A stretch of DNA of 64,000 bases from Amorphus orientalis (GTDB taxonomy: Bacteria > Pseudomonadota > Alphaproteobacteria > Rhizobiales > Amorphaceae), in assembly GCF_030814015.1 (NCBI RefSeq), contig NZ_JAUSUL010000003.1:310001-374000 (forward strand), in the 5' to 3' direction. This document shows, in pieces, positions 3,934-10,529 of the stretch; within the stretch, counting starts at the first letter, position 1; each line of letters opens with the position of its first letter. The translations under genes and the position numbers were made by a program. Under the pieces are notes generated by a model. That model did not search any database. It was not told the origin of the DNA and was given only the letters and a program-made list of their open reading frames with translations.

Positions 3934-4082
3934 CGGACGGTTCCGGCCTTGTCTGCGGTTAACCCTCCGGAAATCGCGCAGTCCCGCCTGCCGGTCAAGG
4001 CACGTCCGCTCGACCCCCGCGCGCGGCGGTGCTAGGGGAAGGCGTCCATTCCCGACATCCGAGAGACATGACCACCCGCACC

Positions 4083-5348
4083 ATGAACATCCTGCTGATC
4101 GGCGGCGGCGGCCGCGAACATGCGCTCGCCTGGGCCCTCAAGAAGTCCCCGCGCATTCATCGCCTGATCGCCGCACCCGGCAATCCGGGCATCGCCGCGA
4201 TCGCGGAAACCGCAAAGCTCGACGCCGCCGATCACGCCGCCGTTGTCGCCTTCTGCCGCGACACCGCGATCGATCTGGTGGTCATCGGGCCCGAGGCGCC
4301 CCTGGTTGCCGGCCTCGCCGACGATCTCGAGGCGGCCGGCATCCGCGTCTTCGGCCCGTCGAAGGCGGCGAGCGCGCTGGAGGGATCGAAGGCCTTCACC
4401 AAGGAACTGTGCGCCGAGGCCGGCATTCCCACCGCCGCGTTCCGGCGCGCCGCCACCCTGGAAGCCGGATTGGCCGCCCTCCAGGAGATGGGCGCGCCGA
4501 TCGTCGTGAAGGCGGACGGGCTCGCGGCCGGCAAGGGTGTGGTCGTCGCCGAGACCCTCGAAGAGGCAACCAAAGCCATCGAAGCCTGCTTTTCGGGCGC
4601 CTTCGGCGACGCCGGGGCGGAAGTCGTGCTGGAGGAGAAGCTGGTCGGCGAGGAGGCGAGCTTCTTTGCCGTGACCGACGGCGAGACCGTGGTTCCGCTC
4701 GCCACCGCCCAGGACCACAAGCGCACGTTCGACGGCGACCGGGGCCCCAACACCGGCGGAATGGGCGCCTACTCGCCGGCGCCGGTCATGACCGATGACA
4801 TGATCGCGCGGACCATGTCGGAAATCGTCGAGCCGACGGTGGCCGCCATGCGTGCCCGCGGCACGCCGGTGCGCGGCGTGCTCTATGCCGGCCTGATGAT
4901 CACCGACGAGGGCCCGCAGCTGATCGAATACAATGTCCGCTTCGGCGATCCGGAATGCCAGGTCCTGATGATGCGGCTGACGAGCGATCTGGCCGAGCTC
5001 CTGATGGCCGCCGCCGAGGGCACCCTCGCGGAGACCGAGGTCACCTGGTCCGACGACGCGGCGCTCACCGTGGTGATGGCCACCCGGGGCTACCCCGGTC
5101 CGGTCGAGCGCGGCAGCGGGATCCGCGGCCTGGAGGCCATCGACGATCCCGATACGGTCGTGTTCCACGCCGGCACCAGCCTCGACGGAAGCAGGCTCGT
5201 CGCCAGCGGCGGCCGCGTCCTGACCGTGACCGCGACGGGCGCGACCATCGCGGAAGCGCGCGAGCGGGCCTATGCGGCCGTGGCGAAGATCGACTGGCCG
5301 GAAGGCTTTTTCCGCTCCGACATCGGCAATCGGGCGCTGGACCGGTAG
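4083..5348 (+). CDS. purD: Phosphoribosylamine-glycine ligase (GARS)
   Basis: This is the ATP-grasp enzyme that joins glycine to 5-phosphoribosylamine in the second step of de novo purine synthesis. It begins with the family signature [17 protein letters not shown] and later shows the ATP-grasp core ([13 protein letters not shown]) and the purD signature RFGDPECQ. Length is 421 residues with this start, normal for PurD. An in-frame ATG at 4068, preceded by GAGAG, would add MTTRT and may be the true start; I chose 4083 from the family N-terminus. It is a monocistronic housekeeping gene, divergent from ubiA. Confidence 0.95.
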
Positions 5349-5445
5349 GAGCTGCCGCGCAAAGCCCACCCATGTGCGCCATCGCGCCCCCATGCCCGGT
5401 GGGCACGGATCCGCCGACCCTCTCGCTGCGTAGCGGACACGAAAC

Positions 5446-5480
5446 GACAAGCCGTCGGCGGCCTCCGCCGGCGGCTTGTC
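5446..5480 (+). terminator. Strong hairpin downstream of purD
   Basis: A 16-bp stem (GACAAGCCGTCGGCGG with its complement, one mismatch) closes on the 3-base loop CCT about 100 bp after the purD stop. It has the strength of a transcription terminator, but only a short ACTTTCC follows instead of a T-run, so it could instead be an mRNA-stabilising 3' end. It also lies 33 bp upstream of the next gene. Confidence 0.5.
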
Positions 5481-5512
5481 ACTTTCCGGACGCGACACGC
5501 AAGAGAGGCGCC

Positions 5513-5911
5513 ATGACCATGCCGAACAGCAAACGCCTCCTCCAGGCGATGGTGGCCGTCCTTGCACTGGTGCCGGTCTCCGCCGGGTTGGCCGGCGTCC
5601 TCCTCGGACCGTCCGCGTTTGCGCCGTCGGGCGACTGGCCGGTCGATCTCGACAGCCATTTTCATTATCTGTCCGGGATCTTTCTGGCGATCGGGCTCGC
5701 CTTCTGGGCGACGGTGCCCGCCATCGAACGCAAGACGACCCTTTTTCGGCTGGCGGCCGCGGCGGTCGTCTTAGGCGGAGCGGCCCGGCTCCTGTCGCTG
5801 GTTGTCGACGGCGTCCCCTCCCCGCCGCATCTCGTCGGGCTCTGCCTCGAACTCGTCGTGACGCCGCTTCTCGTCGTCTGGCAGGCACGCGTCGCGCGCG
5901 CCACCGACTGA
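5513..5911 (+). CDS. Small membrane protein, DUF4345 family
   Basis: A 132-residue protein with four predicted hydrophobic segments (about residues 11-34, 52-68, 78-97 and 107-125). The pattern of a DSHFHYLSGIF stretch after the first segment followed by a short helical bundle is that of DUF4345 proteins, which have no known activity. The start at 5513 has GAGAGG five bases upstream; a second ATG two codons later is possible. It is monocistronic, set off from purD by a strong hairpin. The family call is moderately sure; the membrane topology is directly visible. Confidence 0.7.
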   Translation: MTMPNSKRLLQAMVAVLALVPVSAGLAGVLLGPSAFAPSGDWPVDLDSHFHYLSGIFLAIGLAFWATVPAIERKTTLFRLAAAAVVLGGAARLLSLVVDGVPSPPHLVGLCLELVVTPLLVVWQARVARATD

Positions 5912-6145
5912 CGGTGACTGTTCGGCCAACGCCTATGATCCGAGCGGCGGCAGCGACCGGATGGCGGCTTCGGGCCGCCCTTGCGGCGGCTGGTCGTCAG
6001 GCACCGAGGCGACCCCTTGCCCTTCGCCGCGCTTCACGGTCATCTATGCAACAAAAAATTGCTGCGTTCGAATCCTGATCGCGGCCGTTCGGCGTTGTTA
6101 TGGGCGGACGGCTTCCGGTGCCGTCGGAAATGGGAGGCGGCGGCC

Positions 6146-6505
6146 ATGCGCGTGATGGTTCTGGTGAAGGCGACAGAGACGTCCGAGGCCGGCGTGATGC
6201 CCACGTCCGAGCTGCTCGAGGCGATGGGCGCCTTCAACGATCAGTTGAGCGCAGCGGGAATCCTGCGCGACGGGGGCGGCCTGAAGCCGACCTCGAAAGG
6301 CAAGCGCGTCGCGTTCGACGGTGAAGGCCGAACCGTGATCGACGGACCGTTCAGCGAAACCGGGGAGCTCGTCGCGGGATTCTGGATCTGGGAGGTGAAG
6401 GACCTCGAGGAGGCCGTGGCATGGGTGAAGCGCTGCCCCAACCCGATGCCCGGCCCGAGCGAGATCGAGATCCGCCCGTTCTACGAAGAAGCCGATTTCG
6501 CCTGA
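6146..6505 (+). CDS. YciI family protein
   Basis: A 119-residue soluble protein of the YciI-like dimeric alpha-beta barrel group. Typical features are the opening MRVMVLVKATETSEAG, the central VIDGPFSETGELVAGFWIW and the tail IEIRPFYE. Many relatives lie beside sigma factors or small-molecule enzymes and have no proven reaction. The start at 6146 is supported by GGGAGG eight bases upstream. The next gene, DUF1428, is another small ferredoxin-like-fold protein on the same strand. The 234 bp upstream of this gene hold no recognisable gene. Confidence 0.85.
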   Translation: MRVMVLVKATETSEAGVMPTSELLEAMGAFNDQLSAAGILRDGGGLKPTSKGKRVAFDGEGRTVIDGPFSETGELVAGFWIWEVKDLEEAVAWVKRCPNPMPGPSEIEIRPFYEEADFA

Positions 6506-6566
6506 GCGCCGCCGGGGCAATCGGGCTGCGCCTTTCGTATTTCACCGAATGCAATCGAGGTCGGAC

Positions 6567-6950
6567 ATGTCCTACGTGGATGGATTCGTCATTGCCGTTC
6601 CTGCCGCCAACAAGCAGGCCTTCATCGACCATGCCCGCGTCGGCGACGGCGTCTTCATGGATCTCGGCGCAACGCGCGTTGTGGAATGCTGGGAAGACGA
6701 CGTGCCCGACGGAACGGTGACGGATTTCCGCCGCGCCGTGCAGGCAACTGCCGACGAGAAGGTGGTGTTCTCGTGGATCGAATGGCCCGACAAGGCGACG
6801 CGCGACGCCGCCATGGCCAAGATGATGGAGATGATGTCCGATCCGTCGAAGGTCGATCCGCGGATGGATCCGGCGAAGAACCCCATGCCGTTCGACGGCA
6901 AGCGGCTCGTTTTCGGCGGCTTCGCGCCGGTCGTCAGCCTGCCCGACTGA
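6567..6950 (+). CDS. DUF1428 family protein
   Basis: A 127-residue protein with the DUF1428 pattern: an opening MSYVDGFVIAVP, a conserved ECWEDDVPDG segment near residue 40, a FSWIEWPDK segment, and an ending with MPFDGKRLVFGGF. The family adopts a dimeric alpha-beta barrel fold and has no established function. The start at 6567 has GAGG upstream and matches family N-termini; an ATG 18 bp earlier is not needed. It sits between a YciI protein and a haloacetate-dehalogenase-like hydrolase and may be cotranscribed with them. Confidence 0.88.
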   Translation: MSYVDGFVIAVPAANKQAFIDHARVGDGVFMDLGATRVVECWEDDVPDGTVTDFRRAVQATADEKVVFSWIEWPDKATRDAAMAKMMEMMSDPSKVDPRMDPAKNPMPFDGKRLVFGGFAPVVSLPD

Positions 6951-7046
6951 GGAGCAGGCCGGGCCGGAGAGCCCATCCTTGCGCTCCCGCGCCTCGACCG
7001 GCATGCTCGCCGTTCTTTCCGATGGTCCCGGTCCCGCGAGGTCTCA

Positions 7047-7976
7047 ATGCGCGAACTTCCCGAGCTCTTTTCCGGATTTCGCTCGGAGACCATCGAAGGC
7101 GACGGGACCGACATTTTCTGCCGGATCGGAGGGGAAGGGCCGCCGCTGGTCTGCCTGCACGGCTTTCCCGAGACCCACGCCATGTGGCACCGGATCGCCC
7201 CGGCGCTCGCCGCGCGCTACACGGTCGTCCTGCCCGACCTGCGCGGTTACGGCCAGAGCGGGATGGTCGGCGCGGGGGCGGACGTCACGGCCTATTCGAA
7301 GCGGGCCATGGCCAAGGACGTCGTGGCCGTCATGAACCGTCTGGGCTATTCCAGCTTCCGGGTGGCGGGTCACGACCGCGGCGGCCGGGTGGCCTATCGG
7401 CTGGCGCTTGATTTCCCCGAGGTCGTGGAAAAGCTGGCGTTGCTCGACATCATTCCGACGGCTGCCATGTGGGACGGGATCACCGTTCAGCGGGCGCTTG
7501 CCGCCTATCACTGGCTGTTCCTGGCCCAGAACGAGCCGATGCCGGAGCTGCTGATCGCCCGTGCCCCGATCCAGTATCTCGACTACACGATGGCGGCCTG
7601 GACCAAATCCGGCAACCTGACCTCGTTCGACGAGCGCGCGCTGGCCCACTATCGGGCCTTCTACAAACAGACGGAGCGGATGCACGCCACCTGCGAGGAC
7701 TACCGCGCCGGCGCCACCGCCGACTGGGACGACGATCGCGCCGATCAGGAAGCCGGCCGGAAGATCGCGGCGCCCACTCTGGTGCTTTGGGGGTCCCACG
7801 GCATCCCGGGGCACGGCATCGGCCCGCTCAGGATCTGGGAAGACTGGGCGGAGAACGTCGAGGGCCACGAGATCGAGTCGGGACATTTCCTGTGCGAGGA
7901 AGCCCCCGACGAAACGCTCGCTGCCCTGCTCCTGTTCTTCGAGGAACCGGAAGCCGACGAGGATGCCCCGCAGTAG
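7047..7976 (+). CDS. Alpha/beta hydrolase, fluoroacetate/haloacetate dehalogenase type
   Basis: A 309-residue alpha/beta hydrolase. It carries HGFPETHAMWHR near residue 38 and the nucleophile elbow GHDRGGR at 108-114. From established structures of fluoroacetate dehalogenase (Rhodopseudomonas RPA1163), the working residues are Asp110, Asp134 and His280 (catalytic triad), Arg111 and Arg114 (carboxylate grip) and His155, Trp156 and Tyr219 (fluoride pocket). All eight are present here at the same residue numbers. The expected reaction is hydrolysis of haloacetate to glycolate and halide in the cytoplasm. Defluorination itself is inferred; a chloroacetate or unrelated carboxylate substrate is possible. 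It lies after a DUF1428 gene, convergent with tadA. Confidence 0.85.
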   Translation: MRELPELFSGFRSETIEGDGTDIFCRIGGEGPPLVCLHGFPETHAMWHRIAPALAARYTVVLPDLRGYGQSGMVGAGADVTAYSKRAMAKDVVAVMNRLGYSSFRVAGHDRGGRVAYRLALDFPEVVEKLALLDIIPTAAMWDGITVQRALAAYHWLFLAQNEPMPELLIARAPIQYLDYTMAAWTKSGNLTSFDERALAHYRAFYKQTERMHATCEDYRAGATADWDDDRADQEAGRKIAAPTLVLWGSHGIPGHGIGPLRIWEDWAENVEGHEIESGHFLCEEAPDETLAALLLFFEEPEADEDAPQ

Positions 7977-8000
7977 AGCCGGGGCCGGAGCGCGACGGGC

Positions 8001-8474
8001 TCAGCGCCGATCGCGGAAGAAGTCGCGCAGCAGCGACGCCGCCTCGGTCTCGCCGAGACCGCCATAGACCTCCGGCGCGTGATGGCAGGTCGGCTGCGAG
8101 AAGACGCGCGGGCCATGCTCCACCCCGCCGCCCTTCGGATCGGCGGCTCCGAAATAGAGCCGGCGCAGACGGGCAAACGAGATCGCGCCGGCACACATCG
8201 GGCACGGTTCAAGGGTGACATAGAGATCGCAGCCGGTGAGCCGCTCGTCGGCGAGCGCCCGGCACGCCTCCCGGATTGCCAGGATTTCGGCGTGCGCGGT
8301 CGGGTCGAACAGTTCCCGCGTGCGGTTTCCGGCGGACGCGACGAGCGTTCCGTCCTTGACGATCGCCGCGCCGACGGGCACCTCTCCCCGGGCCGCCGCG
8401 GCCCGCGCCTCGTTGAGAGCCGTGTCCATGAAGGACGATGCCGCAGGCCGCTCTTTACTGGCAGTTTCCGTCAT
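8001..8474 (-). CDS. tadA: tRNA-specific adenosine deaminase
   Basis: TadA deaminates adenosine-34 to inosine in tRNA-Arg(ACG). The zinc-site motifs HAEILAIREAC and PCPMCAGA are intact, with the catalytic Glu in HAE. The ending SQPTCHHAPEVYGG followed by LLRDFFRDRR is typical of alphaproteobacterial TadA. Starting at 8474 gives 157 residues and includes the FMDTALNEAR first helix; an internal ATG at 8429 would give 142 residues and clip that helix. Neither start has a good ribosome site. The ATG at 8474 shares the palindrome TCATGA with the divergent rluB start. Confidence 0.92.
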   Translation of the reverse strand: MTETASKERPAASSFMDTALNEARAAAARGEVPVGAAIVKDGTLVASAGNRTRELFDPTAHAEILAIREACRALADERLTGCDLYVTLEPCPMCAGAISFARLRRLYFGAADPKGGGVEHGPRVFSQPTCHHAPEVYGGLGETEAASLLRDFFRDRR

Positions 8475-9957
8475 GACCGATCCGTCCACTCCCCCGTCCC
8501 AAGACCGCATCGCCAAGGTGATCGCCCGCGCCGGCCTCTGTTCGCGCCGCGAGGCGGAAGCCTGGATTGCCGAGGGCCGCGTCGCGGTCAACGGGGTCAC
8601 CCTCGTCACGCCCGCCGTCACCGTCGGCCCCCGCGACACCGTCACCGTGGACGGCCACGAACTGCCCACCAAGGAGCGCACCCGCCTGTGGCTTTACCAC
8701 AAGCCGCGCGGCCTGGTGACCACCACGCGCGACCCGGAGGGCCGCCCGACGGTGTTCGAGCGCCTGCCGACCGACCTGCCGCGCGTGATCTCGGTCGGCC
8801 GCCTCGACATCAACACCGAGGGTCTGCTGCTCCTCACCAATGACGGCGGCCTCGCCCGCGTTCTCGAACTGCCGGCGACCGGCTGGCTGCGCAAATACCG
8901 GGTGCGCGCCCACGGCCAGGTGACCCAGGCGGATCTGGACAAGCTGAAGGACGGGATCGCCGTCGACGGGATCCTGTACGGGGCCATCGAGGCGACCCTC
9001 GACCAGGTCCAGGGCACCAACGTCTGGATCACGATGGGGCTTCGCGAAGGCAAGAACCGCGAAGTGAAGAACGTGCTGACGGCGCTGGGACTGCAGGTGA
9101 CCCGGCTGATCCGGATCTCCTTCGGTCCGTTCCAGCTCGGCGAACTCTCGCTCGGCACCGTGACCGAAGTGCCCGGCCGCACCCTGCGCGACCAGCTCGG
9201 CCGGAAGCTGGCCGCCGAGGCCAATGCCGATTTCACCGCGCCGATCACCCACCAGACCGGGCGCTCCGAGCCGCAGGCCGGATCGGCGCAGACCGCCGGT
9301 CGCGGATCCAGGCGCGACGACGCGGGCACAAGGCCGCGCCGCGAGGGGCGCCCGATGACCAGCGACAAGCGCCGCGCCCGCAGCCGGGCCGACGAGCGCA
9401 CCGGCCCGTCCGACCGCCCCCGCCACGGACGCCCGGACCGGGAGGAGCGCCCGGCGCGGTTCGAGGCCCGCGAAGGCGGACCGGAGGGACGGCGGCCGCC
9501 CCGTGGAGGCGGCACCTACGCACCCGGGGACCGCCCCCGGAGAGACGAAGGGACAGACGGGCGCGGCGAGCGGAAGGACCGGAAGGGCGGATTTTCCGGA
9601 CGCGGAGAGGACGCGCGCGGCGACCGCCCGGTGCGCGGGCGACGGCCCGAAGACAGCCCGGGCGGAAAGGGCGCGGGACGCCCGCCCCGCCGGGGCGGAG
9701 ACTCTCCGGCCCGCTCGACCGGAGACAGGGCCGGCCCGCGGCCGGAGCGGTCGGATCGCCCAGGGCAGGAGGCTGGCTCCGCCGGCGCCGCAAAGCGGTC
9801 TGGCCCTAGGACCGGAGGCGATGAGCGTCCGCGCGGCCGGCCGGGCGGAAAGCCCGGAGCCGGCGCACCCGCTGGCAAGAAACCGTCTCGCGGCAACGGC
9901 CGGCCACCCTCCGGCGGCCAGCGCCCGTCCGGCCCGGGCAAGGGACCCCGCCGGTGA
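8473..9957 (+). CDS. rluB: 23S rRNA pseudouridine synthase (RluB/RsuA family) with long disordered C-terminal tail
   Basis: The first 240 residues hold an S4 RNA-binding domain (about 10-60) and an RsuA-type pseudouridine synthase domain with catalytic Asp112 in GRLDINTEGLLLLTNDG; RluB makes pseudouridine at 23S rRNA position 2605 (E. coli numbering). The remaining 250 residues are low complexity, dominated by Arg, Gly, Pro, Asp and Ser, with no fold visible. Such tails are frequent in alphaproteobacterial members and probably bind RNA. Total length is 494, against about 290 for E. coli RluB. The start at 8473 has no clear ribosome site. The stop overlaps the rsmD start (GTGA). Confidence 0.9.
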   Translation: MTDPSTPPSQDRIAKVIARAGLCSRREAEAWIAEGRVAVNGVTLVTPAVTVGPRDTVTVDGHELPTKERTRLWLYHKPRGLVTTTRDPEGRPTVFERLPTDLPRVISVGRLDINTEGLLLLTNDGGLARVLELPATGWLRKYRVRAHGQVTQADLDKLKDGIAVDGILYGAIEATLDQVQGTNVWITMGLREGKNREVKNVLTALGLQVTRLIRISFGPFQLGELSLGTVTEVPGRTLRDQLGRKLAAEANADFTAPITHQTGRSEPQAGSAQTAGRGSRRDDAGTRPRREGRPMTSDKRRARSRADERTGPSDRPRHGRPDREERPARFEAREGGPEGRRPPRGGGTYAPGDRPRRDEGTDGRGERKDRKGGFSGRGEDARGDRPVRGRRPEDSPGGKGAGRPPRRGGDSPARSTGDRAGPRPERSDRPGQEAGSAGAAKRSGPRTGGDERPRGRPGGKPGAGAPAGKKPSRGNGRPPSGGQRPSGPGKGPRR

Positions 9958-10529
9958 GGATCGTCGGCGGCCGCTTTCGCGGTCAGCGGCTGTCCGCGCC
10001 GTCCGGGATGGCCACCCGGCCCACGACGGACCGCCTGCGCGAGGCCATCTTCAACATTCTGGAACACGGCTACGACGATCCGGTCGACGGCGCGCGCGTG
10101 CTCGATCTTTTCGCAGGAACCGGTGCGCTCGGTCTGGAAGCCCTCTCCCGGGGCGCGAAGTTCACGCTGTTCGTGGAACAGGCGGCGGGCGCGCGCGGCT
10201 GCCTGCGCGAAAATGCCGACGCGCTCGGGCTCACCGGCCTTGTGCGCATCTGGCGCCGCGACGCCACGAAACTGGGCCCGGTGGGGACGCTCGCCCCGTT
10301 TGACATCGCCGTCTGCGACCCGCCTTACGGACAGGGGCTGGGCACGGCGGCGCTGGCATCGGCCCTTGCCGGCGGCTGGCTGAAGCCGGGCGCGCTGTGC
10401 GTTCTGGAGGAGACGGTTCGCGAGGAGATCGACGCGCTCGACGGGTTCGACGTGCTGGAACGCCGGACCTATGGCGACACCGCCGTCACGTTCCTGAGGG
10501 CTGCATCGGCCCCGGACGAACCCGCCTGA
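9954..10529 (+). CDS. rsmD: 16S rRNA (guanine-966-N2)-methyltransferase
   Basis: A 191-residue class I SAM-dependent methyltransferase that methylates G966 of 16S rRNA during 30S assembly. It opens with the RsmD signature MRIVGGRFRGQRL and RPTTDRLREAIFNIL, then the SAM-binding VLDLFAGTGALGLEALSRG and the catalytic DPPYG. It uses a GTG start whose last two bases begin the rluB stop, so it is translationally coupled to that rRNA modification gene. Both act on ribosomal RNA, which explains the pairing. Confidence 0.95.
   Translation: MRIVGGRFRGQRLSAPSGMATRPTTDRLREAIFNILEHGYDDPVDGARVLDLFAGTGALGLEALSRGAKFTLFVEQAAGARGCLRENADALGLTGLVRIWRRDATKLGPVGTLAPFDIAVCDPPYGQGLGTAALASALAGGWLKPGALCVLEETVREEIDALDGFDVLERRTYGDTAVTFLRAASAPDEPA

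Follow-up and report, generated by a model that had tools for sequence, protein, structure and literature searches.

The open reading frame at 7047-7976 of the Amorphus orientalis DNA analyzed here (a stretch of 64,000 nucleotides, called the window below) is probably an ortholog, inherited mainly by descent, of RPA1163 from Rhodopseudomonas palustris CGA009 and would encode a haloacetate (fluoroacetate) hydrolase; we infer its chemistry, its relative rates on C-F and C-Cl bonds and its use in the cell. The protein family itself was already known, and what is newly added is the orthology and the conserved genomic position of the RPA1163 group. Enzymes that cleave C-F bonds tend to be presented as rare catalysts that break down poisons or pollutants. 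The organism of one genome paper is, we presume, a member of the same order. That paper counts such a gene among contaminant-degrading enzymes, and the accessible part of its text makes no mention of purD (PMC6754898). Among the papers listed from one open-access library, we found none linking a fluoroacetate or haloacetate dehalogenase to purD.

An RPA1163-type hydrolase in A. orientalis

The gene and its active-site codons, in window coordinates, are as follows.

7047..7976, plus strand: putative RPA1163-type fluoroacetate/haloacetate dehalogenase, an alpha/beta hydrolase of 309 aa (open frame, alignment, fold, tree)
7374..7376, plus strand: codon of the nucleophile Asp110, first residue of the motif DRGGRVAYR (DRxxRxxxR, with Arg111 and Arg114; alignment numbering)
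7509..7514, plus strand: codons of His155-Trp156, two of the three fluoride-pocket residues (alignment)
7701..7703, plus strand: codon of Tyr219, the third fluoride-pocket residue (alignment)
7884..7886, plus strand: codon of the catalytic base His280 (alignment)

The Pfam assignment of the protein was Abhydrolase_1, and it passed no curated NCBIfam cut-off. When PDB chains were searched with phmmer the best match was RPA1163 (3r3u; E 8e-101, query 2-299 against chain 4-301), followed by D4B (9c9f), Alr0039/NOS0089 (3qyj), a Pseudomonas protein labeled epoxide hydrolase (4bat), DAR3835 (8sdc), 4nvr and FA1 (1y37). RPA1163 numbers are obtained by subtracting 2 from the 3r3u chain index, and the two proteins aligned without gaps, 154 of 298 residues (52%) being identical. 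In this gapless alignment Asp110, Arg111, Arg114, Asp134, His155, Trp156, Tyr219 and His280 all stand at their RPA1163 numbers, as the earlier note had reported, and in the alignment to RPA1163 and related dehalogenases that it had proposed the pocket residues were retained, with no loss seen. The protein has the Asp-His-Asp triad (Asp110, His280, Asp134), the sequence DRGGRVAYR at 110-118, an instance of DRxxRxxxR that includes the predicted carboxylate-binding arginines, and, by sequence alignment, the fluoride-pocket residues His155, Trp156 and Tyr219. The description of the active site as complete held for these eight residues and failed for the whole substrate pocket, in which Ala152 and Thr181 replace Lys152 and Lys181 of RPA1163, both of them targets of mutation in work on that enzyme. 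As a cross-check of the larger alignment, its columns for the dehalogenase H-1 show the published numbers D105, H150, W151, Y213, H272, W180, S147, Q245 and M246, as printed in the accessible part of PMC12955510.

The fold agreed with the alignment. An AlphaFold2 model built from nine sequences had a mean pLDDT of 81.1 and a pTM of 0.85, and its top Foldseek matches in the PDB were RPA1163 entries (for example 5o2i_A, TM 0.90/0.94). VIA-align, which uses the entries' own numbers and pairs model residues 1-302 with 3r3u residues 1-302, gave Z scores of 37.7-39.0 with rmsd 1.9-2.0 for RPA1163 chains, 36.6 for NOS0089 and 35.3 for D4B. The identification as an RPA1163-type enzyme was upheld, by the shared fold and by orthology from tree and position (see below).

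The eight residues mark a common family

The residue set had been put forward as the signature of a rare activity; in sequence terms this rarity is unsupported, the same eight residues being common in the order and occurring through the class. All eight were present in 71 of 74 homologs and DRxxRxxxR in 73 of the 74, a set fetched by similarity alone that leans to close relatives. Of these, 20 come from 41 genomes of relatives (own copy excluded); the order (297 genomes) added 26 and the class (289 genomes) another 28, the order-wide and class-wide homologs being the best-scoring loci. A mixed alignment, from which the truncated L059 protein (178 aa) was left out, had the set in 129 of its 138 rows; the exceptions include a Trp155 branch (4nvr, a Klebsiella plasmid copy and an Acetobacter plasmid copy) and the Streptomyces cattleya homolog. 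Homologs at E<=1e-60 occurred in 149 of the 297 sampled genomes of the order and homologs at E<=1e-80 in 38 of the 289 of the class, and 347 of 72,556 plasmid records matched the family at E<=1e-30. As the set is near-universal among homologs it marks membership in a common family, and because the eight residues vary so little there, they cannot alone predict activity. A hydrolase whose nucleophile is a serine has also been reported to cleave fluoroacetate (PMC13230308, cited in part).

The branch in which Trp replaces the fluoride-pocket His155 consists of L148 (2064-4829, a Klebsiella pneumoniae plasmid), L150 (1992-2885) and PDB 4nvr, and it probably acts on a different substrate. On the Klebsiella plasmid the hydrolase gene lies in a run of leuC, leuD, a fumarylacetoacetate hydrolase family gene, the hydrolase and a LysR gene, with IS elements adjoining; 58 Klebsiella plasmid records matched the family at E<=1e-30. 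Streptantibioticus cattleyicolor is a fluoroacetate producer, and the homolog on its plasmid pSCAT (L147), at 39% identity and on a long branch, has Leu at the Arg114 and Trp156 positions and is probably not a standard fluoroacetate dehalogenase. Natural single changes within the RPA1163 clade, His155 to Asn in Parvibaculum (L103) and Asp134 to Glu in Pelagibius (L033), are useful variants for probing the roles of these residues. A haloarchaeal plasmid, from Haloarcula sp. JP-L23 (L149), encodes a homolog of 50-52% identity in which all eight residues are present; this suggests that the gene has passed between domains.

The RPA1163 group occupies a conserved position downstream of purD

Gene order in the window is ubiA (minus), purD (plus), a small ORF, YciI, DUF1428, the dehalogenase gene (plus), tadA (minus), rluB (plus) and rsmD (plus).

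4068..5348, plus strand: purD, conserved upstream neighbor (NCBIfam TIGR00877, 542 bits, cut-off 288; synteny)
5446..5480, no strand: strong hairpin downstream of purD and ahead of the inserted genes, its 16-bp stem GC-rich and not followed by a long T run (fold)
5514..5911, plus strand: small ORF downstream of purD and upstream of the dehalogenase gene, with ATG 5514 taken as its start (homolog in the congener)
6146..6505, plus strand: YciI-domain protein, inserted (Pfam PF03795, 58.3 bits, stretch from 6152)
6549..6950, plus strand: DUF1428 protein, inserted (Pfam PF07237, 140.7 bits)
8001..8681, minus strand: tadA-like tRNA adenosine deaminase ORF, convergent conserved neighbor (best match NF008113, 123.6 bits, below the cut-off of 150; synteny)
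8473..9957, plus strand: rluB-like rRNA pseudouridine synthase, block member (TIGR00093, 121.4 bits, cut-off 109.3; RluB NF007976, 162.5 bits, below the cut-off of 290)
9954..10529, plus strand: rsmD, block member (TIGR00095, 137.1 bits, cut-off 117.5)

The small ORF at 5514..5911 had no NCBIfam match, and the true start of the tadA-like gene probably lies inside the ORF at 8001..8681. With the hairpin in between, the dehalogenase gene may lie outside the purD transcript.

Synteny was scored by searching the neighbor proteins against the DNA around homologs, with 4-kb flanks (less at contig ends) at 80 named loci. The 80 were the top-scoring among at least 582 loci found by motif patterns that include His-Trp and by a query alignment of mostly syntenic proteins; counts from them lean to the clade of the A. 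orientalis gene, and some loci repeat one genome under two names. purD was found at 58 of the 80 loci, tadA at 46, rluB at 45 and rsmD at 36; at least one of the four was present at 64, and all four were absent within the stretch examined at 16. The YciI and DUF1428 genes adjoin the dehalogenase gene in A. orientalis as the earlier note had stated; they are not conserved there, YciI being near none of the 80 named relatives and DUF1428 near one. Neither was accepted as a functional partner, on the same counts.

Among the 20 homologs from relatives (1.5-kb flanks), 11 had at least one conserved neighbor, and the copy of the congener (L004) is 4.9 kb from purD on its upstream side and about 10 kb from tadA on its downstream side. 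The twelve with neighbors, the congener included, are at least 48% identical to the A. orientalis protein; the only close homolog lacking such neighbors is L016 (49-50% identical), and none of the seven homologs with 47% identity or less had any. Conserved neighbors were present at 25 of the 26 further order-wide loci and at all 30 loci of RPA1163 relatives. They were found at none of the 28 class-wide loci, 27 of which come from other orders (1.5-kb flanks, less at contig ends; best-scoring loci only). Since the CGA009 genome was not seen in the sample, homologs 98% identical to RPA1163 from two genomes (G486 and G456), which by this identity appear to be Rhodopseudomonas palustris-like, stand in for its locus. 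Both lie in the full block purD-FAcD-tadA-rluB-rsmD (L182 and L183) and hence RPA1163 is very probably found at the same genomic position, the purD ... tadA-rluB-rsmD position that the A. orientalis gene shares with its group.

Wherever purD was hit (at 92 of 126 loci and in three longer stretches) it came first and was co-directional with the dehalogenase gene, 95 cases out of 95. The gap between them was -4 (an ATGA, GTGA or TTGA overlap) at 17 of the 92 loci, two identical pairs included, and 150 bases or less at 72, such that in part of the order the start of the dehalogenase gene overlaps the purD stop codon or follows it closely. These short or overlapping gaps suggest joint transcription in many species. 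The congener (G001; L113 and L185) shows the block stretched, with about 4.9 kb from purD to the gene and about 10 kb from the gene to tadA; in its insert, homologs of YciI and of the small ORF adjoin purD.

Phylogeny and mode of inheritance

In a careful maximum-likelihood tree of 88 hand-picked rows, a 47-row clade (bootstrap 97, SH-aLRT 92) united the A. orientalis protein with RPA1163, the homolog 98% identical to RPA1163 and 37 of the 38 syntenic rows. FA1, H-1, NOS0089, D4B, 4nvr and 27 class-wide rows from other orders fell outside, and RPA1163 is the only characterized enzyme placed in the tree that falls in the purD-linked clade. In a quick tree of 115 rows, a set of 95 rows (support 80) included RPA1163 and every one of the 82 syntenic rows and excluded FA1, H-1, NOS0089, D4B and 4nvr. 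From this second tree 29 loci had been left out as near-duplicates or fragments, 24 of them syntenic and five non-syntenic (L048, L055, L062, L093 and L105), and of the 30 loci of RPA1163 relatives L152, L155, L167 and L173 alone entered it. Neither tree had an outgroup from other alpha/beta hydrolase families or DAR3835. A row was called syntenic if purD, tadA or rluB lay within its stretch, the congener L004 being scored by hand from longer stretches. The syntenic label changed state nine times on each tree, against means of 25.0 and 27.6 after shuffling. The clade and the shared position together lead us to regard the gene as the RPA1163 ortholog, inherited mainly by descent in Hyphomicrobiales, an order name taken from sampled genomes whose rows are identical to those of named Hyphomicrobiales or Stappiaceae records.

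The fit is not perfect. Syntenic L014 (tadA and rluB) lies outside the 47-row clade and nine non-syntenic rows lie inside it. Some rows within the clade bear names from other orders or families. L033 (Pelagibius), L087 (Amaricoccus) and L103 (Parvibaculum) are non-syntenic and come from metagenome-assembled genomes, and one further such row, L046 (Agaricicola, filed under Paracoccaceae), is syntenic. L033 is the nearest row to the pair formed by the A. orientalis gene and its congener, with weak support (82/29). The misfit rows from other orders could reflect transfer or mis-binned contigs, and these rows together with the nine state changes mean that losses, moves, transfer or mis-binned contigs played a part. 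Within its own family, matches at E<=1e-40 occurred only in the congener and in two of eight other sampled genomes (G005 and G009).

Dehalogenase distances and PurD distances at the same loci were correlated (r 0.61, n 93; highest value in 1000 permutations 0.10), as expected under joint inheritance, although shared species history alone would give the same. Between A. orientalis and the congener, dN was 0.141 and dS 0.82 for the dehalogenase gene, a dN/dS of about 0.17 that compares with 0.22 for purD and 0.155 for rsmD, and the GC content of the gene was 0.672 versus 0.686 for the 64-kb stretch. On the whole these data support descent under purifying selection. The earlier statement that the gene bears no sign of transfer is mostly borne out by the conserved block, the neighbor-like constraint and the ordinary GC content; what it leaves out are the few rows from other orders inside the clade, with L033 (weakly supported) the nearest.

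Pocket differences and comparison with characterized enzymes

RPA1163 residues Trp142, Tyr154 and Trp185 are also kept in the A. orientalis protein, and Tyr141, Met145, Tyr149, Lys152, Lys181 and Ala254 of RPA1163 are replaced by Met, Ile, Arg, Ala, Thr and Pro. We take these six positions to lie in or near the pocket, and presumably all of them line it. Lys152 has been proposed to be part of an outer substrate-binding site of RPA1163 (PMC11465415, cited in part). At this position Ala is found in the A. orientalis protein, FA1, NOS0089 and D4B, Ser in H-1 and Lys in the congener; among the 74 similarity-fetched homologs Lys occurs 21 times and Ala 18 times. Lys152 thereby appears as a trait of RPA1163 rather than of its orthologous group, and Ala152 does not exclude activity, because FA1 and NOS0089 have Ala and H-1 has Ser. 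Position 181 is Thr in the A. orientalis protein and in 39 of the 74 homologs versus Lys in 14, and thus Lys181 of RPA1163 is not typical. PDB titles describe Lys181 and Trp185 mutants of RPA1163 and structures with bulky 2-fluoro acids; the A. orientalis protein has Thr and Trp at these positions.

Growth selections of H-1 on 2-fluoropropionate almost exclusively kept Trp180 and also kept Met246, and favored small apolar residues at the position that matches RPA1163 Lys152 (PMC12955510, cited in part). Trp185 of the A. orientalis protein matches H-1 Trp180, and Pro254 stands at the H-1 Met246 position, where RPA1163 has Ala. Trp150 of FA1, the counterpart of Trp156 here, was required for fluoroacetate and not for chloroacetate (PMC11022551, cited in part), and so the presence of Trp156 favors activity on C-F bonds. 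We predict that the enzyme would act on both fluoroacetate and chloroacetate and that its range among larger acids would be somewhat different.

Of the characterized enzymes RPA1163 (PDB 3R3U) is most fully matched: it shares the fold, the eight residues, Trp142, Tyr154 and Trp185, the gapless alignment, the clade and, judged by its 98%-identical homologs, the genomic position, but differs by the 52% identity, the six pocket changes and the three ORFs and hairpin that precede the A. orientalis gene. H-1 (DehH1, Delftia acidovorans plasmid pUO1) has the eight residues and a Trp180 equivalent to Trp185, but is 41% identical and lies outside the syntenic clade. Its gene is on a conjugative plasmid, where IS1071, IS481, crcB and a LysR gene lie within the 6.8 kb displayed, whereas the A. 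orientalis gene has no linked crcB; as the pUO1 record says only "alpha/beta hydrolase", we identified H-1 by residue numbers that match those printed. FAc-DEX FA1 (Burkholderia sp. FA1, PDB 1Y37), NOS0089 (Alr0039, PDB 3QYJ) and D4B (PDB 9C9F) likewise have the eight residues and Ala at 152, but are 40, 48 and 46% identical over the aligned stretches and fall outside the syntenic clade, and D4B has Arg at position 185.

Proposed reaction

Arg111 and Arg114, which we take to be the residues that hold the carboxylate, would by analogy with RPA1163 hold that of the substrate. Asp110 would then attack the alpha carbon in an SN2 reaction, the leaving fluoride would be held by His155, Trp156 and Tyr219, and His280 with Asp134 would activate a water that hydrolyzes the aspartyl ester to give glycolate and halide. 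The RPA1163 mechanism on which this is modeled consists of SN2 attack by the aspartate, an ester intermediate and activated water with the triad Asp110-His280-Asp134, fluoride being stabilized by His155, Trp156 and Tyr219 (PMC11022551, cited in part); RPA1163 is a homodimer with half-of-sites reactivity (PMC11465415, cited in part). On this analogy we expect, with good confidence, that the A. orientalis enzyme hydrolyzes haloacetates in vitro.

The genome encodes a CrcB fluoride exporter (98.8 bits, above cut-off) and a GlcD-like protein (546.9 bits, below the curated cut-off of 567.9), next to which there is a second, weaker match. Both genes are on other contigs than the dehalogenase gene, and no fluoride or glycolate gene was linked to the latter; with these unlinked genes the cell could take care of the products. 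No match to a fluoride riboswitch was found among the 150 of 822 first-look candidates from the genome that were scored.

What the enzyme might be for

Identity as an epoxide hydrolase, of the Cif-like type or a related one that resembles fluoroacetate dehalogenases, seems very unlikely. Cif-like epoxide hydrolases (PDB 3KD2) share the fold and the active-site His/Tyr pair (PMC8244358, cited in part), Cif chains match the A. orientalis protein at E about 1e-25, and HGFP with its aromatic residue is usual in epoxide hydrolases (PMC7429986, cited in part), but RPA1163, FA1 and H-1 also have HGFP. The RPA1163 match (8e-101) has an E-value lower by about 75 orders of magnitude, such that the protein is closer to characterized dehalogenases than to other alpha/beta hydrolases, and the tree groups it with RPA1163, though no Cif row was included. 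DRxxRxxxR, which separates the dehalogenase family from epoxide hydrolases and is lacking in the epoxide hydrolases of the same study (PMC7429986, cited in part), is present. Epoxide hydrolases would have an aromatic residue after the catalytic Asp; here Arg111 follows Asp110. We therefore disfavor this identity on the presence of the motif. Even less probable is that the gene is decaying or non-functional in the genus after the inserted genes cut it off from purD. Three ORFs and a strong hairpin do intervene, the congener has gaps of 4.9 kb to purD and about 10 kb to tadA, and a scan of 5300-8250 for sigma-70-like promoters gave no site, although such a scan has little power in a GC-rich genome; but the gene is full length, has all eight residues and shows a dN/dS of about 0.17 between the two congeners.

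Another alternative concerns the physiological role rather than the chemistry. The RPA1163 machinery may have been kept while the job selected in the order is another hydrolysis, of another natural 2-halo acid or of an endogenous carboxylate with another leaving group or an ester, with C-F cleavage as a side activity. We give this nearly an even chance. In its favor are an old purD-linked gene, always downstream and co-directional (95/95), with gaps of -4 at 17 and of 150 bases or less at 72 of 92 loci, a constraint like that of its neighbors, the atypical Lys181 of RPA1163 (Thr in 39 of the 74 homologs, Lys in 14) and the lack of linked fluoride genes. On the other hand, hardly any homolog has lost a residue of the halide-pocket trio, a pattern to be expected if selection acts on halide release, and RPA1163 does cleave fluoroacetate (PMC11022551, cited in part). 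Retention of the gene beside purD in much of the order is hard to explain by fluoroacetate alone; that its main native role is something other than fluoroacetate breakdown strikes us as close to a balanced proposition, natural haloacetates or another carboxylate being possible native substrates. Such a role and haloacetate hydrolysis in vitro do not exclude each other.

The conserved purD linkage argues against a recently acquired poison-degrading trait. A tentative reading, to which we give somewhat less than an even chance, is that the RPA1163 group is an ancestral purD-linked gene of Hyphomicrobiales selected for a native metabolic or protective hydrolysis, of natural haloacetates or of some other carboxylate, C-F cleavage being a long-standing side activity or just one of several uses. 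If so, the Thr181/Ala152 pocket of the A. orientalis protein would be more usual for the group than that of RPA1163. The orthologous group is in any case a source of many natural pocket variants at positions 141, 145, 149, 152, 181 and 254. The best-studied C-F cleaving enzyme belongs to a gene group whose position is conserved over much of a large bacterial order, and this conserved position makes what the enzyme is for an experimentally testable question.
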